Of a DNA stretch of 22,480 nt, positions 162 to 22,480 are shown piece after piece. The DNA comes from a virus. The DNA is taken from positions 1-22,480 of IMG/VR virus record IMGVR_UViG_3300008055_000372; one strand, given 5' to 3'. The notes beneath the pieces were generated by a model. It was not told the origin of the DNA and searched no databases. It was given only the letters and a program-made list of their open reading frames with translations. The stretch's first letter is position 1. The number at the start of each line of letters is the position of its first letter. A program made the translations under genes and the position numbers.

Positions 162-1235
162 ATGAGTGCATTAAACTTCGGCACGACTGTGTCACTCGCA
201 GAGGCAGCAAGCCTTATCATCAACTGTCCGAACAATCGGTTCTTCCTTCAGGGTGAGCCGGGCATCGGCAAGTCATCCATCATGGGCACACTGGAGCGTC
301 ACTTCGGTGACGCATATGCCTACGCATATTTCGACTGTGCGCAAGCCGACCTTGGCGACATCGCCATGCCGAGTATCAACCGTGACCAGCAAATCACAGA
401 GTATTTTGCCAACGCTATATTCCAGTTACAGTCCGGCAAGCCTGTGGTTATTATGCTAGACGAGTTCACCAAGGCACCGCAGCCAGTTCAGAACATGCTG
501 CATCCGCTACTCGAGGCGCGTAAGCCACGGCTAGGTAACAACGTGCTGCCCGATGGTTCCATCGTGCTTATGACTGGCAACATGGCTGGCGAAGGTCTTG
601 GCGATACAGTCAAGGCGCATACGCGCAACCGTGTAACCACAGTTACGGTGCGCAAGCCAGATGCAGACGAGTGGTTGGCATGGGCTGTGACTAACGACAT
701 CGACCCTGTTGTCATGGCGTGGGTTAACCAGTTCCCGCATGCGATGGCGTCCTACATGGACGGTGACCAAGAGAGTAACCCGTATATCTTCAACCCCAAG
801 CGGATGCAGGGTAGCTTCGTAACAGGCCGGTCCTTGCAGCTTGTATCTAATGACGTGCTTAAGCAGCGTGAGAAGGTGACCGCCAACGCGCTACTCGCAG
901 CCATGTCAGGTACAATCGGTGAGTCCGCTGCGCGGGACATGCATGCATTCGTCGAGTATCAGGACCAGCTACCTACGTGGGAAGACATCACCAACGAGCC
1001 AGCCAAGGCCAAGCTGCCCGAGAGTCCCGGCGCGTGTGCAGTCATGGTGTTCGGTGCGATTGCCAAGATTGACCGGACTACAATCACGCCGTTCATGGAG
1101 TATGTCGAGCGCATGGCACCCGAGTGGCAAGCTGTGTTCGCAGTCAACCTGTCCAAGAACCCAGACAAGAAGCAGATTGGCTTCACGTCCACCAAGTTCC
1201 GTGATTGGGCATTGGCTAACGTGGATATCCTGTGA
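162..1235 (+). CDS. MoxR-type AAA+ ATPase
   Basis: This 357-residue protein is a AAA+ ATPase of the MoxR/CbbQ type, an ATP-driven remodeller of other proteins. A P-loop is at residues 31-39 (GEPGIGKSS, Lys37), Walker B at 96-102 with Asp100 and Glu101, and sensor-1 Asn140 in LMTGN. The length fits a single AAA+ module with a C-terminal helical part. The ATG follows an AAGGAG site by six bases. MoxR ATPases usually work with a von Willebrand A protein, and one is encoded one gene downstream, so the two probably form a pair as RavA-ViaA or CbbQ-CbbO do. The client is not evident. The family is clear; the function in the phage is inference. Confidence 0.9.
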   Translation: MSALNFGTTVSLAEAASLIINCPNNRFFLQGEPGIGKSSIMGTLERHFGDAYAYAYFDCAQADLGDIAMPSINRDQQITEYFANAIFQLQSGKPVVIMLDEFTKAPQPVQNMLHPLLEARKPRLGNNVLPDGSIVLMTGNMAGEGLGDTVKAHTRNRVTTVTVRKPDADEWLAWAVTNDIDPVVMAWVNQFPHAMASYMDGDQESNPYIFNPKRMQGSFVTGRSLQLVSNDVLKQREKVTANALLAAMSGTIGESAARDMHAFVEYQDQLPTWEDITNEPAKAKLPESPGACAVMVFGAIAKIDRTTITPFMEYVERMAPEWQAVFAVNLSKNPDKKQIGFTSTKFRDWALANVDIL

Positions 1236-1252
1236 CCAAGGAGCTTCATGTC

Positions 1253-1417
1253 GTGGATGTGAAGCGTAGTAAGATTTGGTCGATATGGCAGGTCAATCTG
1301 TCCGATGGCAAAGTCATGCACGTTTCATTCTTCGACCATCCCGATGAGCTAAGCGCGTATGTATACGCAACTAACAGACTAAAGGAGCAAGCTAATGGCA
1401 CTAACAGCCGAGCGTAA
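1253..1417 (+). CDS. Small unknown protein between the MoxR and VWA genes
   Basis: A protein of about 54 residues that I do not recognise; it has aromatic, beta-like segments (KIWSIWQVNL, MHVSFF) and no clear motif. Two GTG starts are possible. GTG 1232 overlaps the MoxR stop as GTGA but has no ribosome binding site. GTG 1253 lies 9 bases after AAGGAG (1238-1243) and is preferred here. An ATG at 1248 in another frame stops after four codons. The gene overlaps the start of the next one (ATG 1395) by 23 bases. Its position between two partner genes suggests a co-translated accessory subunit, but nothing more can be said from sequence. Confidence 0.55.
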   Translation: MDVKRSKIWSIWQVNLSDGKVMHVSFFDHPDELSAYVYATNRLKEQANGTNSRA

Positions 1418-2591
1418 ACTAACACGGGTTGTCATTGACTTGATGCGCAACCCGTTGTTCGCAGACATGTCCGGTATCTTTATGATGGGCACGAAGGAGG
1501 TGAGCGACGACATACCAACCGCTGCCACTGATGGGCGTGACGAGGTATACGGACGCAGCTTCATCGACTCGCTATCCATACAGGAGGTAGCTTTTGTCGT
1601 GGTGCACGAGTCGTTCCACAAGATGTATCGCCATCTAACTACGTGGCAGAAGCTATGGAAGGAGGATGCGCGGCTAGCCAACATGGCCTGTGACTACGTC
1701 ATCAACCTAGAGATTGTCACACGTGACCCGAACGGCACGGTGGTGGCGATGCCCAAGAAGGATGGCAAGACTATCGGTCTACTCGACCGCAGGTTCGCAG
1801 GTATGAACACCAAGCAAGTCTTCGACCTACTCAAGAAGGAGCAGGAAGAAGGCGGTGGCGCAGGTGGTGGCGGCGAAGGCGAAGGCATGGACCACCATGA
1901 CTGGGAAGGCGCGAGTGAACTGACCAAGGAGGAGAAGGAAGAGCTGGCTAAGCAAGTAGACCAAGCCATCCGCCAAGGTATGATTGCTGCGCAGAAGATG
2001 CATGGCAAAGGTGCAGGTGGTATGTCGCGTGAGTTGTCGGACATACTCGAGCCGAAGGTAGACTGGCGTGAGCAGCTACGTGAGTTCGTCAACGCCACGT
2101 GCGGTGGGCGTGACTACTCATCATGGCGCAAACCCAACCGTAGGTTTCTATCATCGGACACTATCATGCCCAGCCTCGTCGGGGAGCGCGTAGCCAACAT
2201 AGTCATTGGCTGTGATACGTCTGGTTCAATCACCAACGCGGACCACGCACGGAACCTGTCGGAGACTGACGCTATCTTAACCGTGGTTACGCCTGACAAG
2301 CTGCACATCATCTATTGGGACCACACGATGGCAGGGCATGAGGTGTATGATGACTCGACACGCAGTTCGTTCCGTAACTCGACTAAGCCAGTAGGTGGGG
2401 GTGGTACAGACCCAGCAGCTATGGAGCGATACCTCAAGGAGAAGGACATCAAGGCCGACTGCATCATCATGTTCACGGATGGCTACGTGCCTAACTGGGG
2501 CACAGACTGGAACGGTGCGCCGATACTGTGGGTAATCACAGGCGGTGGCCGGATGACAGCGTCAACAGGCAAGACAATCCATATCAACTAA
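1395..2591 (+). CDS. Metallopeptidase-like / von Willebrand A-like domain protein (MoxR partner)
   Basis: This 398-residue protein has two recognisable parts. The N-terminal domain carries a zincin-type HExxH, HESFH at residues 71-75, with a conserved-looking ACDYVIN segment (Asp100) as in DUF2201-type putative metallopeptidase domains. A glycine- and glutamate-rich linker (about 150-175) leads to a charged helical region. The C-terminal part is VWA-like, with the MIDAS motif DTSGS at 274-278 and a later metal-site Asp362 in MFTDG. Proteins of this architecture are commonly paired with MoxR ATPases, as here. The ATG at 1395 follows AAAGGAG. Whether the peptidase is active is unproven, though the two His and the Glu are all present. 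Confidence 0.9.
   Translation: MALTAERKLTRVVIDLMRNPLFADMSGIFMMGTKEVSDDIPTAATDGRDEVYGRSFIDSLSIQEVAFVVVHESFHKMYRHLTTWQKLWKEDARLANMACDYVINLEIVTRDPNGTVVAMPKKDGKTIGLLDRRFAGMNTKQVFDLLKKEQEEGGGAGGGGEGEGMDHHDWEGASELTKEEKEELAKQVDQAIRQGMIAAQKMHGKGAGGMSRELSDILEPKVDWREQLREFVNATCGGRDYSSWRKPNRRFLSSDTIMPSLVGERVANIVIGCDTSGSITNADHARNLSETDAILTVVTPDKLHIIYWDHTMAGHEVYDDSTRSSFRNSTKPVGGGGTDPAAMERYLKEKDIKADCIIMFTDGYVPNWGTDWNGAPILWVITGGGRMTASTGKTIHIN
2275..2289 (+). repeat. Second copy of the TCTTAACCGTGGTTA 15-mer
   Basis: The 15 bases are identical to 126-140, the palindrome upstream of the MoxR gene. Here they lie inside the VWA coding region (encoding part of AILTVV), and the outer arm base is changed, so the inverted repeat shrinks to TAACC-GT-GGTTA. 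Either chance or a second binding site for the same protein. Confidence 0.35.
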
Positions 2592-2602
2592 GGAGCAAAC
2601 CA

Positions 2603-3454
2603 ATGAGTATTTCAAGTTCAGCAATGCTGGTGGAGATGAACATCTCCGTATGGACAGCAGCAATCATCGACCGGAAAGCAACGGACAAGGCAACGCTAGA
2701 CGCACATGCTGTGGCTGACGCTGGTAAGTTCAGGAAGAACCTTATGGCTGGCACTAGCTTGCGTAAGGACATAGCTGACTACGCTGCGCTGTGTCGCACG
2801 TGGCACAACGGACGCACACTACCTTGGTCTGACAAGGGCGTGAGACTGCTGCCTACATCTATGTTTCTGGAGTATAAGCGCGAGGCAGACGCACGAGCGG
2901 CGTACTTCAACTCGAAGGTGACTAAGTTCGTAGCTGAGTACCCTACGCTGGTTGAGGCTGCGAGGTTCAACCTTGGTGACCTATTCAATGCAGGTGACTA
3001 CCCAAGCGCAGATGATGTGGCGTCCAAGTTCGCGTTCCGCATGGTGTTCAGCCCTGTGCCAGAGGTGGGTGACTTCCGTATCGACGTAGCCAGTGATGAG
3101 CTGGCCCATCTACGCAATCAGTACGAAGCGGCATACATAGACCGTGTGGGTGACGCGATGAAGACCACGTGGAACAAGCTGCACTCGACACTGCTAACCA
3201 TGAGCGAGAAGTTGACCGAGCCAGAGGGCGAAGAGACTAAGCAGTTCCGGTCTACGTTCGTAACCAACGCGCAGGAGATGTGCCAGCTATTGTCGCACCT
3301 CAACATAACTAAAGACCCAGAGTTGGAGTCAGCTAGGTTAGCACTGGAGAAGGCCATTCGCGGTGTAGACGTAGACGACATCCGCAAGGACGAGTTAGCA
3401 CGTAGCGACCTCAAAGCGCATGTGGACTCGGTACTAGGACAATTTGATTGGTAA
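2603..3454 (+). CDS. Unknown helical protein of the MoxR/VWA module
   Basis: A 283-residue protein, largely alpha-helical in appearance, with no catalytic motif I can identify. The ATG at 2603 is chosen because AAGGAG lies 8 bases upstream; the frame is open further upstream but only inside the preceding gene. The stop lies 14 bases before the next ATG. MoxR and VWA genes on plasmids and phages often have a third helical partner (DUF3150-type proteins are one example). That resemblance rests on context and helical character only and was not tested. Charged helical segments near residues 180-260 could form coiled coils and support an adaptor role. Confidence 0.82.
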   Translation: MSISSSAMLVEMNISVWTAAIIDRKATDKATLDAHAVADAGKFRKNLMAGTSLRKDIADYAALCRTWHNGRTLPWSDKGVRLLPTSMFLEYKREADARAAYFNSKVTKFVAEYPTLVEAARFNLGDLFNAGDYPSADDVASKFAFRMVFSPVPEVGDFRIDVASDELAHLRNQYEAAYIDRVGDAMKTTWNKLHSTLLTMSEKLTEPEGEETKQFRSTFVTNAQEMCQLLSHLNITKDPELESARLALEKAIRGVDVDDIRKDELARSDLKAHVDSVLGQFDW

Positions 3455-3468
3455 GAAGGAGTATTACA

Positions 3469-4347
3469 ATGAATAGCGTTAGCAGAACTAAGCACCCACT
3501 GAATGTGCACAACACATATTTGACTTACCCCACAGGCGCAGACTCACTCACCGAGTCCCGTGCCAGAGAGTCCATAGTGCATCCGTTCATGGTTCCTCTA
3601 ATCGAGGCGCTGCAGCTTAAGCGTCCGCACTGGGAGTTCGAGGCCACTGGCTTTGGTAGCAGAGGGGTTGGCGAGTATGCATACAACGTGCTGCACGATA
3701 GCTTCAACGTCTACGACAACGGCGACAAGCTGGGCAATATAGAGCGTGAGTATTACAGGGACGAGAACGTGTACGCAGCGGGTAATCACCGCATAAACGC
3801 GAAGCGTCAGGTGGGCATGCGCAAGAAGAGCAAGCACCTCAAGGTTATCGTGGCCGAAGTATTGCAGGAGTTCTACCCGCTCACGATAGATGAGCTTGCT
3901 GCTGAGAAATACAAGAAGGCCCACGCTGCTATGCAGCAAGCCACCTACAAAGATAAACGACTGTACCTAAACAATGTTGACCTGATACGCGACTCGATGC
4001 TGGCGTACTTAACATCAGGCGACAGGTGGGCAGAGTTCGAAGCGGCCTCAGATAAGCCCGCTGTTATGCAAGCCAAAGCAGCGTACCATACCCTAGCAGA
4101 CAATGCGCGTGTGGCATCAGAGATTAGTGGTTCACCCCATACACTATTGATTGAGCGTCCGAGAGATATTGTCGCCAAGCGTTGCGATGAGGCTGCACGG
4201 TCCACTAACTTAGATGCACTGTCTGACCACATGAAAACATCACTTGCCCTGCTCAAGATGACTGACGTCAATACGCTAGTCGAGGGGGTTGGTGTGCGCA
4301 CCGACGAAGATACTTTCTATATTTTAGATAAGAGTGTTGACGTATAG
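3469..4347 (+). CDS. Unknown phage protein, last gene of the MoxR/VWA module
   Basis: A 292-residue protein that I do not recognise. It starts at ATG 3469 after AAGGAG; the frame also allows a TTG at 3448, but that has no ribosome binding site. The N-terminal part contains WEFEATGFGSRGVGEYAY and a mixed alpha/beta pattern, the middle is basic (KRQVGMRKKSKHLK), and the C-terminal half is helical. There is no membrane segment or signal peptide. It follows the preceding gene by 14 bases and is followed by a 40-base gap before the nuclease gene. Co-transcription suggests a shared process, possibly client recognition, but that is inference. Confidence 0.82.
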   Translation: MNSVSRTKHPLNVHNTYLTYPTGADSLTESRARESIVHPFMVPLIEALQLKRPHWEFEATGFGSRGVGEYAYNVLHDSFNVYDNGDKLGNIEREYYRDENVYAAGNHRINAKRQVGMRKKSKHLKVIVAEVLQEFYPLTIDELAAEKYKKAHAAMQQATYKDKRLYLNNVDLIRDSMLAYLTSGDRWAEFEAASDKPAVMQAKAAYHTLADNARVASEISGSPHTLLIERPRDIVAKRCDEAARSTNLDALSDHMKTSLALLKMTDVNTLVEGVGVRTDEDTFYILDKSVDV

Positions 4348-4387: not shown

Positions 4388-4693
4388 ATGGCGTCAACGC
4401 CAGAGAAAAGAGTCAAAGAAAAAATCGTTAAGGTGTTGAAGGAGGAAGGAGTTTACTACTTCTTCCCCGCCACCCATGGCTTTGGCCGTAGCGGTGTGCC
4501 TGACATAATATGCTGTGTGAACGGTTACTTCTTAGGCATCGAGGTCAAGGCAGGGACTAACAAGCCCACTGCTCTACAGGTGCGTGAGATTGAAGCCATA
4601 CGCAGGTGTAACGGCGTAGCTGTGGTAGCCAACGATGAGAACTGGGACATGGTGCGCGGACTGGTGCACAAGTTGAAGGAGCAAAACACATGA
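4388..4693 (+). CDS. VRR-NUC domain endonuclease
   Basis: A 101-residue stand-alone nuclease of the VRR-NUC branch of the PD-(D/E)XK superfamily. The core reads GVPDII (Gly36, Asp39), then after a beta hairpin Glu52-Val-Lys54, and Gln64 in the following helix. The length is typical for phage single-domain VRR-NUC proteins, which in known cases are Holliday-junction or structure-specific nucleases. An AAGAAGGAG site precedes the ATG. The stop overlaps the next start as ATGA. Its likely role is resolving branched DNA during replication or packaging. The family is well supported; the precise substrate is not. Confidence 0.88.
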   Translation: MASTPEKRVKEKIVKVLKEEGVYYFFPATHGFGRSGVPDIICCVNGYFLGIEVKAGTNKPTALQVREIEAIRRCNGVAVVANDENWDMVRGLVHKLKEQNT

Positions 4694-5480: not shown

Positions 5481-5966
5481 ATGACAAAGAAACAAACACC
5501 CGAAAACTTCTGGTCCAAGGTCCGCAAAGGGGCAAACGATGAATGCTGGGAATGGACCGGCTGCATTAACAGCACCGGCTACGGCAACGTTGGTTGGGGT
5601 GGCAGCAATTATACAGCCCACCGCGTTGCGGCTTGGCTCTGCGAGTTGGTTAAATCTCCAAGGCGTCCCAAACATAGCAGTGAGAAGGGGCACGTCTTAC
5701 ACAAGTGCGACAACCGTAAGTGCTGCAACCCCAACCATTTTATGATTGGTTCTTACTCCGACAACCAACGTGACGCATACCATAAGAAACGCAAAGTGCA
5801 GCCCAAGGGTGAAGCGCATAGCAACGCCAAACTGACTAACGAACAAGCAAAAGAAATACGGCGTAAATACAAAGAAGGAGCATACCAGATGCCGCTAGCT
5901 AAAGAGTATGGTGTTAGCCAAGTAACTATTAGTCTAATAGTGCGGGGGATTACTTACAATGACTGA
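5481..5966 (+). CDS. Free-standing HNH homing-type endonuclease
   Basis: A 161-residue HNH endonuclease of the HNH_3/NUMOD-associated kind. The core is AHR (His47), then LHKCDN (His74, Cys76, Asn78), CCNPNHF (Cys81, Cys82, Asn83, His86) and Asn95, giving the zinc cluster and the His-Asn-His metal site. Residues about 117-160 (AKLTNEQAKEIRRKY to QVTISLIVRG) form a C-terminal helix-turn-helix typical of these mobile endonucleases and probably provide DNA specificity. There is no good ribosome binding site; AAAGG lies 12 bases upstream. The end overlaps the polymerase start by 8 bases. Such genes usually spread by cutting a neighbouring locus in endonuclease-free relatives, so this is probably a selfish element beside the polymerase gene. 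Confidence 0.9.
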   Translation: MTKKQTPENFWSKVRKGANDECWEWTGCINSTGYGNVGWGGSNYTAHRVAAWLCELVKSPRRPKHSSEKGHVLHKCDNRKCCNPNHFMIGSYSDNQRDAYHKKRKVQPKGEAHSNAKLTNEQAKEIRRKYKEGAYQMPLAKEYGVSQVTISLIVRGITYND

Positions 5967-7827
5967 TATCCTAGTTGTCGATGTGGAGACGTTCTACGAC
6001 CAGAAGTTTAGTCTGTCTAAGATGACAACGGAGGAGTATATCCGTGACCCGCAGTTCGAGACCATCGGCGTTGCAGTCAAGCGCAACAATGAGCCGACTG
6101 AGTGGTTCAGTGGTAGCAAGGCGCAGACCAAGCGGTGGCTGGATAAGTGGGACTGGGCTAACAGCATAGCTGTAGCACATAACGCCATGTTCGACATGGC
6201 TATCCTTAACTGGTGTTATGACATTCGCCCCAAGCGCATTGCTGATACCCTGTCTATGCTTCGTGCCATTGACGGGCCGCATGCTGGTAACAGCCTAGCT
6301 AAAGCTGTCGAGCGTTATGGTCTGGGCGAGAAGGGCACAGAGGTTATCAACGCGCTGGGTAAGCGGCGACTAGACTTCACTGACGAAGACCTTGAGCGGT
6401 ACGGCGAGTACTGCATTAACGACGTAGAGCTGACGCAGAAGTTGTTCGAGGCTTTGGCTCCGCTCATGCCTGTGTCCGAGCTGCGGTTAATTGACCTTAC
6501 TATCAGGATGTTCAGCGAGCCTGTGCTTAAGCTGGATAAGAGTGTGCTGTCGTCGCATTTGGATAACGTGCAAGCCAAAAAAGCTGCGCTCATGGATGCT
6601 GTCGTGGCAGACAAAGACGCGCTCATGTCCAACCCCAAGCTGGCCGAGTTATTAAAGACGCTAGGTGTGGTGGTGCCTATGAAGGTAAGCCCGAAGACAG
6701 GTAAGGTGGCATATGCCTTTGCCAAGAGTGACGAAGGGTTCAAGGCACTGCTGGACCACCCTGACCCGCGAGTGCAAGCGGTAGTAGCTGCGCGACTGGG
6801 TGTGAAGTCTACGCTTGAGGAGACGCGCACCGAACGGTTCATAGGCATTGCTGACCGGGGGCCGTTACCAGTTCCACTACGTTACTACGCAGCACACACG
6901 GGACGCTGGGGTGGCGACGACAAGGTGAACCTCCAGAACCTACCAAGGAAATCACCTCTAAAGCGCGCAATTCTGCCGCCCGAAGGCCATATCTTTATCG
7001 ACTGCGACTCATCGCAAATCGAAGCGCGGACCTTGGCGTGGCTAGCTGGTCAGGAAGACTTGGTGGAGTTCTTTGATAAGAACAATGCGGAAGTCGCAGC
7101 GGGTGTAAAGAAGGAGGACATGCAGTACGACCCATATAAAATCATGGCGTCGGAGATATACGGCAAGCCGGTGAGCGAGATAAACGAGCATCCCGAACGC
7201 TTCATAGGTAAGATGACCATCCTCGGCGCTGGCTACGGCATGGGCGCGGCTAAGTTTAAGGTGCAGCTGGAGACCTTGGGCGTGTCACTGTCGTCGTCAG
7301 AGTGTGCCAGCATCGTATATAAGTACAGGGACCAGTTTGAGCGCATACCGCTATTGTGGGCGGAGGGCGATAAGGCTCTCGATGCACTTATGTCCACTCG
7401 CACCGCACCTCTAGGTAAGCATGAAGCTGTGCTTGTTGATATGTTCGGTGTCAAGCTGCCTAACGGTATGTACTTGCGGTACGATAACCTACGCAAGGAG
7501 CGAGACCCGAAGTCGGGCCGTGACCAGTATGTCTACGATGTCAAGAAGGGTCGGGCTACGTTACCTACGTACATATACGGCGGCAAGCTCATAGAGAATG
7601 TGTGCCAAGCACTGGCTCGTATCATCATAGGTGAGCAGATGCTGATGGTCGCACGTAAGTATCGCGTAGTGATGACCGTCCACGACGCTGTGGGGGTGAT
7701 TGCCCCCATAGAAGAGGCTGACAAGGCCCGTGCGTTTGTGGAGCAGTGCATGCGTATGAGGCCCAAGTGGGCACCGACGCTACCATTAAACTGTGAAAGT
7801 AAGAAAGGAGCAAGCTATGGCGGATAA
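5959..7827 (+). CDS. polA: Family A DNA polymerase with 3'-5' exonuclease domain
   Basis: A 622-residue replicative DNA polymerase of the Pol I family without a 5' nuclease domain. The exonuclease motifs are all present: DVE (Asp8, Glu10), HNAMFD (Asp79) and YCIND (Tyr151, Asp155), so proofreading should work. The polymerase part has TGRW (Thr314-Arg316), motif A DSSQIE (Asp350), the O-helix with Arg414, Lys418, Leu422 and Tyr426, and motif C HDA (Asp576). Two features stand out: leucine instead of phenylalanine at the E. coli 762 position, and alanine instead of the usual glutamate after the motif C aspartate. GGGGG (5943-5947) serves as ribosome binding site. It overlaps the next gene by 11 bases. 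Confidence 0.97.
   Translation: MTDILVVDVETFYDQKFSLSKMTTEEYIRDPQFETIGVAVKRNNEPTEWFSGSKAQTKRWLDKWDWANSIAVAHNAMFDMAILNWCYDIRPKRIADTLSMLRAIDGPHAGNSLAKAVERYGLGEKGTEVINALGKRRLDFTDEDLERYGEYCINDVELTQKLFEALAPLMPVSELRLIDLTIRMFSEPVLKLDKSVLSSHLDNVQAKKAALMDAVVADKDALMSNPKLAELLKTLGVVVPMKVSPKTGKVAYAFAKSDEGFKALLDHPDPRVQAVVAARLGVKSTLEETRTERFIGIADRGPLPVPLRYYAAHTGRWGGDDKVNLQNLPRKSPLKRAILPPEGHIFIDCDSSQIEARTLAWLAGQEDLVEFFDKNNAEVAAGVKKEDMQYDPYKIMASEIYGKPVSEINEHPERFIGKMTILGAGYGMGAAKFKVQLETLGVSLSSSECASIVYKYRDQFERIPLLWAEGDKALDALMSTRTAPLGKHEAVLVDMFGVKLPNGMYLRYDNLRKERDPKSGRDQYVYDVKKGRATLPTYIYGGKLIENVCQALARIIIGEQMLMVARKYRVVMTVHDAVGVIAPIEEADKARAFVEQCMRMRPKWAPTLPLNCESKKGASYGG
7688..7711 (+). other. Stable hairpin in the polymerase message next to motif C
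   Basis: CTGTGGGGG (7688-7696) pairs with CCCCCATAG (7703-7711) around a six-base loop TGATTG, with one G-U pair. It begins two bases after the motif C aspartate codon. It may be no more than a consequence of the codons used for AVGVIAP. Confidence 0.4.
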
Positions 7828-8218: not shown

Positions 8219-8757
8219 GTGAACCACACGAGGTAGTAACACTGCTACTCGCACGTATGAAGAGCCACCCAGAGGAATTTAAACGCCATGAGGACACCTA
8301 CAGCGACCGCTGGTATGACCATGTGAACACGATAAACGCCTACGGAAATGAAGCGGACAGGGCTGCACTTGCCACAGGTTTGCGGGAAATCCGGCTGGGC
8401 GAAGTTCACGAGCTGGTGATGGACGAGTTGCTTAACGGCGACGAGCGCCGCCGCAAGGCAGAGGAAGAAGCCGAGTACGAGCGTGGCTTTATGATGAAAA
8501 ATACGCAGCAACAGAACGCCGTGCATCGGTATCAGAATGCCATAGGGCAGCAACAGGCATGGACGCAAGGGGGCCTACAGAACCAGCTAGGGCAAGCCCA
8601 AGCGTTAGGTATCGGCACCCAGTCACCGTCGCAGCCGCTGACTATTGGCACAGGCGGTAAGGAAATCATGCGTATCAAAGCTGATGGCGGCGTCATCACT
8701 CAACCAAACCTGTCATCATCAGCAATCAACCAAATTAAGAAAGCACTAGGAATATGA
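8215..8757 (+). CDS. Unknown glutamine-rich phage protein
   Basis: A 180-residue protein with three visible parts: a helical, acidic N-terminal region with two charged helices (to about residue 90), a glutamine- and alanine-rich stretch (about 96-135, with QQQ repeats), and a C-terminal beta-like tail, LTIGTGGKEIMRIKADGG, followed by a short helix. Tails of the form TIG-x-G-x-EIMRI-x-DG occur in small phage proteins of unknown role and in some fibre-associated proteins; this is recalled resemblance, not a search result. The ATG overlaps the alpha-CTD stop and follows AGGAG. The end overlaps the methyltransferase start as ATGA. Confidence 0.78.
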   Translation: MSEPHEVVTLLLARMKSHPEEFKRHEDTYSDRWYDHVNTINAYGNEADRAALATGLREIRLGEVHELVMDELLNGDERRRKAEEEAEYERGFMMKNTQQQNAVHRYQNAIGQQQAWTQGGLQNQLGQAQALGIGTQSPSQPLTIGTGGKEIMRIKADGGVITQPNLSSSAINQIKKALGI

Positions 8758-9365
8758 CCGAATACCAATTCACCAAAGACTGGTTCCAGTGGGCACCGGA
8801 GGTCTGGACGCAACTTATCCCTATGTTACCGGAGCGGGCAGAAGAAGGACGTTGCTTTCTTGAGATTGGTTCCTTCGAGGGCCGCAGCACTGTCTGGATT
8901 ATGGAAAACATGATGCAAGATGGCGATGAAATCCACTGCGTAGACACATGGGAAGGCGGCGAGGAGCATAGTGCCGAGGATATGGCGGCTGTCGAAAAAC
9001 GGTTTAGTCACAATATCGGGGTTGCCGTCAATAAGTTCCCAGATAGAGTGGCAATTTGGCAAAAGGGTACTTCGACCCGCAACCTTGCTGGGATAATCCA
9101 GTACGAGGGTGAGGGTGGGTTCGACTTCATCTACATCGACGGTAGCCACATAGCCAAGGACGTGCTGACCGATGCGTGTATGGCTTGGCCGTTGCTCAAG
9201 CCCAAGGGGTTGATGGTGTTTGATGACTACCTGTGGTCGCCTAGCGCACGGGATATCTTGCATCGCCCTAAAGCAGCCATCGACGCCTTCACCAACCTGT
9301 TTGCAGAGGAGGTGGAGATTGTCCACGTTGGATATCAATTAGTTGTACGTAAGAAAGGAGAGTAG
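8754..9365 (+). CDS. Class I SAM-dependent methyltransferase (Methyltransf_24-like)
   Basis: A 203-residue Rossmann-fold methyltransferase. Motif I is LEIGSFEGRST (Glu37-Ile-Gly39 to Ser45), which binds S-adenosylmethionine. HCVDTWEGG carries the acidic residue for the ribose, FDFIYIDGSH (Asp129) and VFDDYLW (Asp157, Asp158) follow. The IDGSH and FDDY motifs are those of the Methyltransf_24 / cephalosporin hydroxylase-like group, which act on small molecules or sugars rather than DNA bases; no DNA-methylase DPPY motif is present. It is linked by ATGA to the upstream gene and ends 2 bases before the next start. With the glycosyltransferase at 10116 it could form a glycan- or base-modification pair. 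Confidence 0.88.
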   Translation: MTEYQFTKDWFQWAPEVWTQLIPMLPERAEEGRCFLEIGSFEGRSTVWIMENMMQDGDEIHCVDTWEGGEEHSAEDMAAVEKRFSHNIGVAVNKFPDRVAIWQKGTSTRNLAGIIQYEGEGGFDFIYIDGSHIAKDVLTDACMAWPLLKPKGLMVFDDYLWSPSARDILHRPKAAIDAFTNLFAEEVEIVHVGYQLVVRKKGE

Positions 9366-9573: not shown

Positions 9574-10119
9574 ATGAGTAATATACATACCATTCGTCCA
9601 CACACTCGGAAGAGAGAAGTCTTAGATATGCTGAAGCTTCACCCCAACAGCACGACTAAAGACCTCCACGACCTTATGCCGCATTTAGATATAGACCATA
9701 TATCGCATGCTATCAGCTCAATGATGGGTAAGGACGTAGTGTTTATAACAGGCAAAAAGCGCGAGACTGGCCCGTCTGGTCGGACCACGACACACCGTTC
9801 GTACTCCGCAAAGCAGCCGAAGGAAGTATGCAACAAATCGCAGGTGAAACCACAGGCTAAGCCGCAGGGTGAGTTACTTAACTCGCTTATCAAAACGCTG
9901 GAAGCTGAAGTTAAGACGCTTCAGGAGTGGAAACAAGCTGCACTACTTCGCTACCCAGACCTCGACGTGGACCCCATAGTGCTTAGGGCACGGCGCTTGC
10001 TAGCGGCTCAGCTAGAAGAAGATGGCAGGATTACACGTGTAGAAGATGTGCTTAACGGCATGATGGACCACACATCCGCGCTTCGGGCCTTGGTTAAGAT
10101 ACTAGGAGGAACAAAATGA
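9574..10119 (+). CDS. Putative winged-helix DNA-binding protein
   Basis: A 181-residue protein. Residues about 8-60 (TRKREVLDMLKLHPNSTTKD, then a second helix and ISHAISSMMGKDVVFITG) fit a winged helix: helix, turn, recognition helix and a beta wing. A basic, proline- and lysine-rich linker (about 65-97) follows, then a coiled-coil segment (LLNSLIKTLEAEVKTLQEWK) and a C-terminal helical domain. AAGAAGGAG precedes the ATG. The gene ends in an ATGA overlap with the glycosyltransferase. A transcription factor or replication accessory role is plausible. The HTH call comes from pattern reading, and I know no named family. Confidence 0.75.
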   Translation: MSNIHTIRPHTRKREVLDMLKLHPNSTTKDLHDLMPHLDIDHISHAISSMMGKDVVFITGKKRETGPSGRTTTHRSYSAKQPKEVCNKSQVKPQAKPQGELLNSLIKTLEAEVKTLQEWKQAALLRYPDLDVDPIVLRARRLLAAQLEEDGRITRVEDVLNGMMDHTSALRALVKILGGTK

Positions 10120-10880
10120 CCGAAGAAAACGCTAAACGCCCAAGCATTATGATTGCCACCCCCATGTACGGGGGCATGTGCACAGGACACTATGTGCAGG
10201 GTCTGCTTATGACCATGAACAAGATGCGTGAGATTGGCGTCAACGTGGCATGGTGTCAGATTATGAACGAGAGCCTTATCACACGGGCGCGTAATGACTT
10301 GGCACGGGTGTTTCTTGAGAGTGACCATGACTACCTCATGTTCATCGACGCTGACATTGGCTTTGACCAAGAGGCCATCGCGCACCTGTTGCTGGCTGAC
10401 AAGGATATCGCATGCGGTATCTACCCTAAGAAAGAAGTGAACTGGGATAGCGTCAACCGCGCCGCCGTTGAGGGCAAGACCGACCTTGCGGACCATGCCG
10501 GAGCCTTTGTGTTTAACATGGTAGGTGCTGGCGATGCGCACACAGACGAGACGGGGTGCATCGAAGTGCGCCATGGCGGTACAGGCTTCATGCTAATCAA
10601 GCGTGGGGTATTCGAGCATTTGATACCGCACGTGCCGACTTATCGTACATCGTCGCTCAAAGACCCACAGACAGGCGAGTATGCCAAGCCGTTAACCCAT
10701 GAGTTCTTTGCCACCAGCATTGACGATAGCGGTGCACTGCTAAGCGAAGATTATCACTTCTGTGAGTTGTGGCGCAAGCACGGGGGCAAGATACACGCCC
10801 ACCCATTCATTAAACTACACCATGTAGGCACGTATGTGTTTGGTGGTGACATTCTAAAGAGCGGAGGAAATTTGAAATGA
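10116..10880 (+). CDS. GT-A fold glycosyltransferase (family 2-like)
   Basis: A 254-residue glycosyltransferase. The N-terminal segment PSIMIATPMYGG starts a nucleotide-sugar-binding Rossmann half; FIDADIGF holds the metal-binding DxD (Asp78, Asp80); ALLSEDYHFCELW (Glu211, Asp212) resembles the catalytic acidic region of GT2 enzymes, followed by HAHPFIKLHHVG. No membrane helix is present, so it is a soluble cytoplasmic enzyme. Related phage proteins sit among replication genes and may glycosylate modified DNA, a virion protein or a surface glycan. No gene for making a hydroxymethylated base was seen in the window. It overlaps both neighbours by 4 bases (ATGA). Confidence 0.88.
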   Translation: MTEENAKRPSIMIATPMYGGMCTGHYVQGLLMTMNKMREIGVNVAWCQIMNESLITRARNDLARVFLESDHDYLMFIDADIGFDQEAIAHLLLADKDIACGIYPKKEVNWDSVNRAAVEGKTDLADHAGAFVFNMVGAGDAHTDETGCIEVRHGGTGFMLIKRGVFEHLIPHVPTYRTSSLKDPQTGEYAKPLTHEFFATSIDDSGALLSEDYHFCELWRKHGGKIHAHPFIKLHHVGTYVFGGDILKSGGNLK

Positions 10881-18920: not shown

Positions 18921-18958
18921 CCCCCGCTGGCGCTCCTCCCCGGCGGGGGTTTTTTATT
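18921..18958 (+). terminator. Strong intrinsic terminator of the rightward operon
   Basis: CCCCCGCTGG (18921-18930) pairs with CCGGCGGGGG (18940-18949), ten pairs with one G-U, around a nine-base loop, followed at once by TTTTTTATT (18950-18958). It lies between the last + strand gene and the stop codon of the minus-strand gene. Read from the minus strand the hairpin has no T-run after it, so it acts in the + direction only. Confidence 0.9.
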
Positions 18959-21900
18959 ACTCCGTAGGTTTCTTTATCATAAACGGCTCTGCTGCACGTT
19001 TCCTGCGTTCCTCTGACTTCTTGCTTACCTGTAGACCCTGTATGTTACGTTCTGAACGTGCGGAGCGACCCTTCATAGACCGGATTATGGTATCTTCGGT
19101 GATTACAAAGTCTTCGTTCGGGTAGGTGCGGTTGAACGGCTCAATTTCTTCCTGCCAGAACTCACGCAAGCCTTCCTTAGACTTAATGTCACCGGACCTG
19201 ATTTTGTCTTCTAGGTCGTCCAAGATGTCCTGCTTCTCTGCTTTGATGCGCTTCTCGTTCTTAGCAGCCGTGATGTAGTAGTCCTGCCAACGTGCCAGCT
19301 TGCCAGACCGAGCACCGAGAACTGAGCGGAACGCATCCGCGCCCGTTATGTCTTCCTTCGGTATTATGGTGTCACCCTTACGGTTCTTAACGCCCTCAGT
19401 CTCGTTTACATACGCTGTTACCCAAGAGCGGAAAAAGGCAGGCAGTGTCTTCTTAAGTCCGTCAGCAATGTCACCCTCGTACATAGCTTCGCCACCACGA
19501 AGAAACTGCGTAGCCATACTCAGACCAGCAATGTTGGCAATAGCTGTAGCAATCATGGTACTCTCGAGGTTATCACCAGAGATAGGCTCACGGAACCACA
19601 TATTAACGAGGTCAAGCGACACGGTGCTAGAGATTTCTGTATCCGTCAAAGCGCCGGGCACACCGCCTATAAATATATCTGCGAAGTCTACGTCCTCGCC
19701 GTCTGGCGTACCCATATGCTCCATCAACCAGCGGCGGAACATAATATCGGCGTCGTAGGCAGTCGTCACGTCCATGCCCATCAGCTTGCGAACGTCTTCA
19801 TCGTCTTCTTCATCAAAGCCTTCCGCTAACGCATGGGCCATCATGGTGTAGAACGGCAACGCTCCGACGCCACCTAGCAGACCGGCCATCATCAAAACGC
19901 CAGAAAACTCTTTGAGTGCACCAGCCATATAGGCGGTGTCTTCCTTGGTAAGCTTGCCACGGCCAGTAGCCTGACGTGCAGCGCCGCGCAGCGGTGCACC
20001 GATAATGTCGCGGAACGCACCAACCATGAACTTAGTCTGCAGGATAGGGTGCATTTTGAACAGGAAGAAGCCGCGAGTAAGTTCGCCCTTAGTTATGCTT
20101 GGACGCTCCCAGTCAGCGAAGTTGCCGATAGTGTCGTCCGTAATCCGCATGGCCTTTTGCAGTGCAGCCTCACGCTGCATCTCTAGCGGCTTCGTGGGGT
20201 TTTCTTTCTTCTGCTTGTTCATCTCCAACTCGAAAGCCATGTAGAATGTGGCTTGCCGTGAGATGTTTTCCGTGCCTGTAAAGAGGAAGCTCATAACTTT
20301 ACCGACATTAGCCAGTAAGTCTTCAGCTTTTCCGGTCAGGTCCGACTGCGACTTGAAAGAAGCGCCACGGTCATTGTGCACCATGGTATCCATAGTAGTC
20401 ATCAATATGCCGCGCTCGGTGCCCGCCTTCATAGCCCACTGCAGGTCAGCATTGTTCTTAACGAAGTTAGAGCCATTCACGTTTGGCATAGCAGCGTCGA
20501 GGTAGTCACCGAAGCGCATGTTGGTGCGCTCTATCTTAACGCGACCTAGGCTATCCCACATCTTCATGTACTTCATCCACATGGCAGTGCCTTCGACGTA
20601 GCCATATTCACGCCAGAAACGTGGTATAACGCGCATAGGAATGTTGGCGAAGTTGGTTAGTGCCGTCCTAGCCGACGTCAGGAAGTAGTAGAATGATGAG
20701 CGGTTGATGAAGTTCAAAATCGCATTTTGTTCACTCGGGTTGATTTCTTGCTCGGCGCGTGTCTCTAGCTCCCGTGCAAAGTCACCCAACATTGCCTGCT
20801 CGCTTGCTGGACGTTGTTTATCGCCAATAATATCCTTTATAGCTTTAACATCCAGACGCACCTGACCTGCATATGCCAGCTTAGTAAGCTCGTTTGCGTT
20901 CGTCGAGACCGACCGCTGCAGGTTTGCAAGAGTATTAGGTGAGAAACCAGCAATCAGCTTAGCATGCATGAAGTGACGCCGCGCAGACCGTTCTGGTGTT
21001 GTCATCAGCCACGTCTGGAAAACGGAGTCCACAAGGTCCCGCATGTCCACCTGACCGGAGTCTTCGTATTCTTTTCGGGCTTTACCAACAATATCGAAGA
21101 CACGCTGCATGAGGTCATCTGTCTCACTCAAGGTGTTTTGTAGCTCACTTATTTTATTATCAAACTTAAACACATTAGAGTCTTCAGGGTCTTCCCCTAA
21201 GCGCTTAGCTATTTCGCGCCGTGCCTGTGCAAGTTGGCGGGCACTTTCAAAGATATAAAACTGCTCTTCGCGACCCTTAGATAAGTCTTCTTCGACGCGT
21301 AACCAGTACTCACCGTCACGCAGTGCTGGGAAATATTCTTTGTCGAACAAGTCGGCGTCTAGGTCCCAGAATATGTCTCCTTTTTTCTGCCGCGCATCTG
21401 AAGACTGCAGCTCGCGCATCATCTGAGCGCGCATATCACGTATACGCACCAGAGCTTCTTCACCCTGTCCACGTGCAATGCGCTCATCAAGCAGTGCCTG
21501 CCTCGCTTCGAACATATCCTTATGGTACTCGCGCTCGTCCTTGTAGAGCTTAAGACCGCCCTTCTGCTTAGCCAGTTCTTCCTTAGTGGCGTAGCTGTCG
21601 CGTATACGCTGGGTCATCGCAGCAAGCTGCTGGACCTTGAGCAGAACTTTATCGTTAGCAATCGCTACTTTCGTAAGCGAGTTCATGTGCGCAAGGATAG
21701 GCGTAGATAGCTTGACCTTATTCTTGAGCACTGTGGTGTTGTCTGTTGCACTCTGTGCCTGCTGTTTGATTGCGTCAATCAACCTGCGTGTTTCAGCCTT
21801 ATTGTTCGAGTTCGAGAGCAGTGCATCCTCAATGGCCTTTATCGCCCTATGGTTAGCCAGCGCTTCGTCCACCGTCTTGAACGCAAGAAAATCAACTTCG

Positions 21901-22480
21901 TTAATACGGTTGGTGAACTGGGCACGGGCAAGTGCCTCACTACCGTACTGGCGCACAAAGTCTTCCATATCGCGGACTAAATCGTCACCTGCAGCTTTAA
22001 GGCTAACCCGCAAGCCGTTCATCTTACGTACGGTGTCAACAAGAACTTCAGCCTGCTTATATACCGCTGGTGCTTTTCGCTCTAGCCAGTTGGTGATGCC
22101 TGACGAAGGCATAGATTTAAGCGCTATCTGCCGTATCGGGGACGCGGTGTCTTTTGCATATATAAGGGCATTGCGCAGTGTAGGGGCGCTGTCCGCAGCT
22201 TCTTCGATGCCGTCCATCAAGCCGTAGGTGCTCATGGTGTCGTTCACCCGACGTGCGCCAGCACTAAGCCCAGCGGCTGCGTCTTCGACCTTTTTACGCT
22301 CCTCGGGAGTGGCTTTAGGCCGCGAGTATTTGGCCGTCATGGTGACATCGTCATCAGCAAATATGACGTAGTTATATCCGGGCTTGTCTAGATTTAACCC
22401 ACGTGAGTTGCCGTCGAGATACTTGTTACCACGTATGCCAGCATCAAGCAGGGCTAGTGAAGCAGCTTTAGGAGAGCCTA
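18957..22480 (-). CDS. Large polyvalent / internal virion protein, C-terminal part (partial)
   Basis: The minus-strand frame is open from the window edge to TAA at 18957, giving at least 1,173 residues; the true start lies outside. An ATG at 22340 is internal, because the frame continues upstream with GIRGNKYLDGNSRG and NYVIFADD (about 22445-22341), a motif common at the end of domains in phage large polyvalent proteins. Long charged helices follow, then hydrophobic patches near 20640-20705, 19829-19901 and 19495-19565 that could enter membranes. The C-terminal region (about 19160-19430, with EGVKNRKGDTIIP and ADAFRSVLG) resembles PLxRFG-type phage proteins. Such giants are internal virion or ejection proteins in podoviruses. 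Convergent orientation fits a late structural operon. Confidence 0.85.
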   Translation of the reverse strand, partial: GSPKAASLALLDAGIRGNKYLDGNSRGLNLDKPGYNYVIFADDDVTMTAKYSRPKATPEERKKVEDAAAGLSAGARRVNDTMSTYGLMDGIEEAADSAPTLRNALIYAKDTASPIRQIALKSMPSSGITNWLERKAPAVYKQAEVLVDTVRKMNGLRVSLKAAGDDLVRDMEDFVRQYGSEALARAQFTNRINEVDFLAFKTVDEALANHRAIKAIEDALLSNSNNKAETRRLIDAIKQQAQSATDNTTVLKNKVKLSTPILAHMNSLTKVAIANDKVLLKVQQLAAMTQRIRDSYATKEELAKQKGGLKLYKDEREYHKDMFEARQALLDERIARGQGEEALVRIRDMRAQMMRELQSSDARQKKGDIFWDLDADLFDKEYFPALRDGEYWLRVEEDLSKGREEQFYIFESARQLAQARREIAKRLGEDPEDSNVFKFDNKISELQNTLSETDDLMQRVFDIVGKARKEYEDSGQVDMRDLVDSVFQTWLMTTPERSARRHFMHAKLIAGFSPNTLANLQRSVSTNANELTKLAYAGQVRLDVKAIKDIIGDKQRPASEQAMLGDFARELETRAEQEINPSEQNAILNFINRSSFYYFLTSARTALTNFANIPMRVIPRFWREYGYVEGTAMWMKYMKMWDSLGRVKIERTNMRFGDYLDAAMPNVNGSNFVKNNADLQWAMKAGTERGILMTTMDTMVHNDRGASFKSQSDLTGKAEDLLANVGKVMSFLFTGTENISRQATFYMAFELEMNKQKKENPTKPLEMQREAALQKAMRITDDTIGNFADWERPSITKGELTRGFFLFKMHPILQTKFMVGAFRDIIGAPLRGAARQATGRGKLTKEDTAYMAGALKEFSGVLMMAGLLGGVGALPFYTMMAHALAEGFDEEDDEDVRKLMGMDVTTAYDADIMFRRWLMEHMGTPDGEDVDFADIFIGGVPGALTDTEISSTVSLDLVNMWFREPISGDNLESTMIATAIANIAGLSMATQFLRGGEAMYEGDIADGLKKTLPAFFRSWVTAYVNETEGVKNRKGDTIIPKEDITGADAFRSVLGARSGKLARWQDYYITAAKNEKRIKAEKQDILDDLEDKIRSGDIKSKEGLREFWQEEIEPFNRTYPNEDFVITEDTIIRSMKGRSARSERNIQGLQVSKKSEERRKRAAEPFMIKKPTE

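Follow-up and report, generated by a model that had tools for sequence, protein, structure and literature searches.

The 22,480-base window analysed here is the entire IMG/VR contig IMGVR_UViG_3300008055_000372, a fragment of the larger, approximately 60 kb genome of an uncultured tailed phage from a little-known group of bacterial viruses. It opens with a conserved unit of four genes, encoding a MoxR-type AAA+ ATPase, a protein that joins a zincin domain to a von Willebrand factor A (VWA) domain, a 283-residue protein distantly related to proteins annotated DUF3150, and a 292-residue protein, X, which evolves rapidly and is replaced between close relatives. Our favoured reading, in which we have about even confidence, is that the four products form one ATP-driven remodelling, possibly proteolytic, machine that works around replication, with X as its lineage-specific target adaptor. 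The features concerned are as follows.

162..1235 (+): MoxR-type AAA+ ATPase, 357 residues (Pfam AAA_5, 3.4e-8; phrog_1297, 2.4e-47)
1253..1417 (+): accessory open reading frame (ORF) of 54 residues, GTG start at 1253, AAGGAG 9 nt upstream
1395..2591 (+): zincin–VWA protein, 398 residues (DUF2201_N, 1.8e-28; DUF2201, 5.3e-12; phrog_1314, 2.1e-85)
1605..1619 (+): HESFH zinc-binding motif of this protein, residues 71–75 (HExxH in 64 of 66 relatives)
2214..2228 (+): DTSGS of its metal-ion-dependent adhesion site (MIDAS), residues 274–278, with companions T338 (within 2394–2411) and D362 (within 2475–2480)
2603..3454 (+): third component, 283 residues, distantly related to proteins annotated DUF3150
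3469..4347 (+): protein X, 292 residues, fast-evolving candidate target adaptor
about 3650..4220 (+): interior of X that cannot be aligned at the DNA level with loci L017–L021, between flanks that are 85–90% identical

The first-pass annotation of this DNA had placed these five ORFs (357, 54, 398, 283 and 292 residues) correctly, together with their strong ribosome-binding sites: AAGGAG lies 6–8 nt upstream of each of the starts at 162, 1395, 2603 and 3469. It treated them as a tight set of five, and here the picture changes. The linkage was surveyed in IMG/VR from two seeds, the 283-residue gene and the VWA gene, using loci with enough flanking sequence. With the first seed, the ATPase, VWA, 283-residue and X genes lie on one strand within 3.9–5.9 kb in 44 of the 46 well-flanked loci, in the order ATPase–VWA–283–X (37 loci) or VWA–ATPase–283–X (seven loci). 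With the second, all four are present in 31 of 33 loci, including 24 of the 26 on contigs outside the first set. Four of the five genes thus stay together in more than 90% of homologous loci, which places the association above chance, and the two main gene orders show that it is not a frozen operon. The 54-residue ORF (61 residues from an alternative GTG start at 1232) is found in only ten loci, those of the nearest relatives; its C-terminal part overlaps the start region of the VWA gene, and it matched no family in the Pfam and PHROG searches. This sporadic occurrence reduces the conserved unit from five genes to four. Nor does the set hold beyond the window's group: N4, At2, phage G, phiFa and the cultured Rhizobium phage RHph_TM3_14A carry the ATPase and VWA genes with no detectable 283-residue or X gene. 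Even among near relatives, two loci discussed below lack the 283-residue gene. An ATPase in related phages unaccompanied by the other four genes was what the first-pass annotation had named as refuting its proposal, and for the five-gene set as a whole this is what is seen; in the window's own virus group the four genes do go together.

The ATPase is intact, as the first-pass annotation had proposed. It contains a Walker A (GEPGIGKS), a Walker B (IMLDE), a sensor 1 (TGN), an RNR motif and a sensor 2 (GRS), and across 58 ATPases of the group the Walker, sensor and arginine motifs show only minor variation. These intact core motifs, and the adjacent gene for a VWA-domain cofactor, place it in the MoxR class. 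MoxR ATPases form rings and reach their targets through VWA cofactors by way of the MIDAS; RavA–ViaA and CbbQ–CbbO, each a MoxR ATPase with its VWA cofactor, share the architecture of the pair in the window. To our knowledge, the cofactors of these two chromosomal systems have no DUF2201 zincin domain, and the systems have no comparable third or fourth subunit. By analogy with its family, the window ATPase would act as a hexameric ring with ATP-dependent remodelling activity. In trees of the ATPase and of the VWA protein, the window's group is a single clade (100/100).

The fusion of a zincin motif to a MIDAS-bearing VWA-like domain, also proposed from the outset, is equally clear. An N-terminal DUF2201_N domain (described in Pfam as a 'putative metallopeptidase') is followed by a glycine-rich linker and a C-terminal VWA domain with its MIDAS (DUF2201, 'VWA-like'). 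HEAGGH replaces HExxH in two of the 66 relatives; elsewhere the middle letters of the motif vary freely but the two histidines and the glutamate are fixed, the pattern that selection on a zincin site should produce. A downstream A-x-D-x3-N (ACDYVIN in the window, residues 98–104) is invariant in all 66. The MIDAS stretches of the window protein are DTSGS, GGGGTD and FTDG, and the D-x-S-x-S, T and TD elements are likewise retained in 66 of 66 relatives. Judging from this conservation, the protein may be an active peptidase. With HExxH and DUF2201_N fused to a MIDAS VWA domain, it belongs to the DUF2201 zincin–VWA proteins (phrog_1314, N4 gp25). At least 607 records of sequenced phages, N4 among them, encode a relative; in the literature searched, we found no tested function for this family. 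Phrog_1314 carries the name 'HNH endonuclease', a label repeated in many RefSeq and GenBank phage records. By its domains, the phrog_1314 protein is a DUF2201_N metallopeptidase plus VWA, and the label is mismatched.

The third component was described as unknown, and indeed neither it nor X has a Pfam or PHROG match at a useful level. Yet relatives of the 283-residue protein are encoded by at least 307 IMG/VR contigs, and tblastn connects it to proteins annotated DUF3150 in Synechococcus phage MinM2 (4e-23) and in a Simplicispira plasmid (6e-33, the best plasmid triad), both in an ATPase/VWA gene context; a Cupriavidus relative is likewise annotated DUF3150. Membership of Pfam DUF3150 (PF11348) itself is another matter: the window protein has no match to this profile, one of 16 relatives matches at 0.0043, and no record reaches the cut-off, the best being a Cupriavidus plasmid at 1.9e-5. 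The AlphaFold2 model is mostly helical (predicted local distance difference test score, pLDDT, of 79.5) and has no match in the PDB at E ≤ 0.001. No paper in the open literature searched mentions DUF3150.

The module was also presumed to be a phage version of the MoxR–VWA pair. It is phage-borne, but its third gene is not phage-only: 42 plasmids carry relatives, and on Simplicispira, Rhodovastum, Cupriavidus and Burkholderia plasmids the relative is preceded by an AAA ATPase gene and followed directly by a DUF2201 VWA gene. Some of these triads adjoin PRTRC or conjugation genes; on two Burkholderiales plasmids (L038 and L039) the ATPase–DUF3150–VWA triad is a few kb from PRTRC and ThiF genes. 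The triads of the Burkholderiales and Rhodovastum (mega)plasmids thus match the module in three genes, which share a strand and either adjoin one another or lie within about 7 kb, although at about 23–31% identity and without X, which was not found there. Synechocystis pSYSA carries only the ATPase–VWA pair, and a scan of cellular genome contigs gave no relative of the 283-residue protein. Since plasmids with ATPase, DUF3150-type and VWA genes make no virion, the module's general role cannot be virion assembly.

Several further candidates were set aside. The IncC plasmid peH4H has no DUF3150 match, and the SXT/IncC arrangement (cobS–DUF3150–VWA beside bet/exo) was dropped as a lead. Profile–profile comparison does not support N4 gp30, a putative thymidylate synthase (PMC2784036), as a hidden homologue of the 283-residue protein, and a 257-residue gene of RHph_TM3_14A is unsupported as a third or fourth subunit. 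A 283-like gene in Tunturi_3 is shaky (tblastn, 9e-5), and neither a VWA gene nor a phrog_1297 ATPase turned up in that phage; its strong profile score is circular, the Tunturi_3 sequence having been a row of the query alignment.

Protein X stands apart from the other three. It is present in all 74 loci with downstream sequence (picked by the 283-residue gene) and, in profile searches of phage and plasmid records, is confined to the window's virus group. Its AlphaFold2 model (pLDDT of 82.9) has a mixed β N-terminal part, a long helical hairpin and a β C-terminal part; no PDB entry matches it at E ≤ 0.001, and its structural matches in BFVD are models from uncultured Caudovirales only. A PDB hit to PARIS AriA (E of 0.0037) has a template modelling score of 0.15 and was judged to be a coiled-coil artefact, and hhalign does not support an X homologue among the MinM2 genes after its VWA. 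In pairwise comparisons of the window with up to nine relatives (Nei–Gojobori method, NG86), the ratio of nonsynonymous to synonymous divergence (dN/dS) is 0.24–0.37 for X, compared with 0.04–0.20 for the other three (ATPase 0.06–0.13, zincin–VWA 0.14–0.20, 283-residue protein 0.04–0.17). Moreover, the X allele has been replaced between close relatives (L017–L021), as seen from the unalignable interior between its 85–90% identical flanks and from the jump in synonymous divergence between the window and L020, from 0.36 in the 283-residue gene to 1.68 in X. This pattern suggests, but does not prove, a target-facing role, given that these genomes also vary elsewhere.

The module lies at the head of the replication genes. 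Beyond it, the window consists of a replication block encoding a VRR-NUC protein, an HNH protein, a family A DNA polymerase, an exonuclease, a helicase and a primase-helicase, of which two are constant companions of the module.

4388..4693 (+): VRR-NUC/Hjc-type resolvase, which opens the adjacent replication block (Hjc, 3.8e-5; phrog_93, 6.4e-18)
5959..7827 (+): family A DNA polymerase (PolA), conserved downstream neighbour (phrog_17, 1.8e-84)

VRR-NUC is found downstream in 73 loci and PolA in 65, and a conserved gene of 300 residues lies directly upstream of the module in 34 (for example L007:1326–2243, L111:3160–4077 and L010:2671–3585; no PHROG match); this gene is missing from the window because the contig begins 161 bases ahead of the ATPase. 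In 38 relatives an extra ORF of 116 residues, absent from the window, separates the VWA and 283-residue genes (for example L085:7437–7781; weak match to phrog_4367). In the long, near-complete relative G001 (62,304 bases), the terminase, portal, major head and virion proteins are encoded on one strand (1.5–40 kb), and the module and the replication genes on the strand opposite TerL, portal and capsid, the module being the first genes of the replication arm. On the evidence of G001, the module of this virus group does not sit with the structural genes. Beyond the group, the pair lies just upstream of a related PolA in RHph_TM3_14A, upstream of the replication genes in N4 (gp24/gp25) and after polA, within about 10 kb, in jumbo phage MIJ3. 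The module was not found in HTVC027P, HTVC023P, DSL-LC04, 023Pt_psg01 or KPP25, phages whose terminase or polymerase is related. It is therefore a constant feature of the group without belonging to the basic machinery of phages.

Other genes of the window are the following. Within the replication block are a Methyltransf_24 protein (8754–9365; 6.3e-22) and an Anp1/glycosyltransferase-like protein (10116–10880; phrog_1574, 1.2e-45). A very large DarB-like antirestriction protein is encoded on the minus strand (18957–22340; phrog_10089, 1.7e-25), convergent with the replication arm and in a frame open to the window end; at the same junction G001 has a plus-strand ORF of 2021 residues, on the late-arm strand.

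The pair by itself is not new. An ATPase and a zincin–VWA protein have been published for N4-like phages (PMC2784036, PMC4193335), where gp24/gp25 are middle genes (PMC4193335), and a MoxR and metallopeptidase–vWA pair in group 2.2 jumbo phages has been proposed to serve virion assembly (PMC7824862); the statement in the first-pass annotation that such a module has no clear job overlooked both. N4 (Schitoviridae) resembles the window in having the AAA+ ATPase followed by the DUF2201 zincin–VWA protein in a middle-gene region ahead of the replication genes, but neither profile nor profile–profile searches found a homologue of the 283-residue protein or X. The group 2.2 jumbo pair has the same two-protein architecture and differs in its proposed role, in its tail-gene context and mass-spectrometric detection in fENko-Kae01, and in that no 283-residue homologue was detected. 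MinM2 and its 65,014-base sister records have MoxR ATPase, DUF3150 and VWA-like genes in one run, and the MinM2 terminase is 50% identical to that of G001; unlike the window, they have another gene order and extra small genes, and X was not found. Three records of this length (OQ594354, OL906435 and PP438419) give the same matches under the hosts Synechococcus, Planktothrix and Planktothricoides, and are probably one phage of uncertain host. The four-part version, with a third gene shared with plasmids and a fast-evolving fourth, was not found described in the open literature searched.

In the machine that we favour, the AAA+ protein would form the motor ring, on which the second protein would dock by the MIDAS of its VWA half, in the manner of CbbQO and RavA–ViaA. 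The zincin domain, whose active site is conserved, would then cut, or at least bind, a peptide, while the 283-residue protein might be a structural, scaffold or adaptor subunit, used in the plasmid versions too, and X would choose the target. The machine would presumably act in the early to middle phase of infection, at about the onset of genome replication; its substrate would be a protein complex involved in replication, belonging to the host or serving defence, and not the virion. Several observations weigh against this. Loci L155 and L182, two of the 33 found with the VWA seed, have ATPase, VWA and X without the 283-residue gene. Several stretches of these genomes besides X are variable, and the fast evolution of X could reflect relaxed constraint. 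The position beside replication genes is a correlation only, and in jumbo phage fENko-Kae01 tail-tube genes adjoin the pair and liquid chromatography–tandem mass spectrometry (LC-MS/MS) has identified the ATPase, a context that fits virion work in that lineage.

This last case also speaks for a chaperone-protease with capsid or tail proteins as its substrates, to be folded or trimmed. Such a role has been proposed for the group 2.2 jumbo pair (PMC7824862) and for ATV tail proteins, and roseophages have a second structural module near their N4 gp24/25 homologues (PMC4193335). We nevertheless regard virion assembly as quite improbable for the window's group, given the replication-arm position opposite the structural genes, the virion-less plasmids that keep three of the genes and the middle-gene status of N4 gp24/25. 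A machine for counter-defence or host takeover, pulling apart or cutting a host or defence complex with X tracking a changing target, overlaps with our favoured reading and differs in the target. Among the jobs floated in the first-pass annotation, dismantling a host complex or countering a host defence fit the rapid evolution of X best. In favour of this explanation, X is the only one of the four to evolve fast and has been exchanged between close phages, the module is absent from HTVC027P, HTVC023P, DSL-LC04 and KPP25, and such a role is plausible too for conjugative plasmids entering new hosts. However, comparison of the module with the PADLOC defence models gives only weak AAA matches (best 4.1e-4), and strong purifying selection acts on the ATPase and the 283-residue protein, which the group almost always retains, unlike typical patchy anti-defence genes; on balance we find this explanation somewhat unlikely. 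Nor was the VMAP component of the ternary conflict systems (MoxR–vWA–VMAP) recognized, as the 283-residue protein and X have neither a meaningful Pfam match nor any PADLOC match.

That only the ATPase–VWA pair is real, with the 283-residue gene and X as unrelated passengers of an early region, would agree with the pair standing alone in N4, phage G, phiFa, pSYSA and RHph_TM3_14A. It seems very unlikely, since the four genes stay linked in both surveys despite the changed order and plasmid relatives of the 283-residue gene also lie between ATPase and VWA genes. Hardly credible, finally, is a cofactor or metal insertase with a CobST/BchID-like chelatase motor: AAA+ plus MIDAS–VWA is an architecture shared in general with such motors, but no gene of chelatase size (CobN/BchH-type) is among the conserved neighbours and the VWA partner is a DUF2201 protein with a zincin domain.

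The conserved four-part version gives the subunits concrete, testable roles and speaks against virion assembly being what the module does in general; the natural loss variants L155 and L182 are useful for questions about subunit roles. If X chooses the target, X would reveal what the machine acts on. It is also conceivable, although we think it unlikely, that X, as a swappable and rapidly evolving adaptor, directs a constant core (ATPase, zincin–VWA and DUF3150-related protein), which conjugative plasmids also have, against host or defence complexes while the phage takes over the cell and replicates. If so, these phages would possess an ATP-driven dismantling machine with exchangeable targeting.

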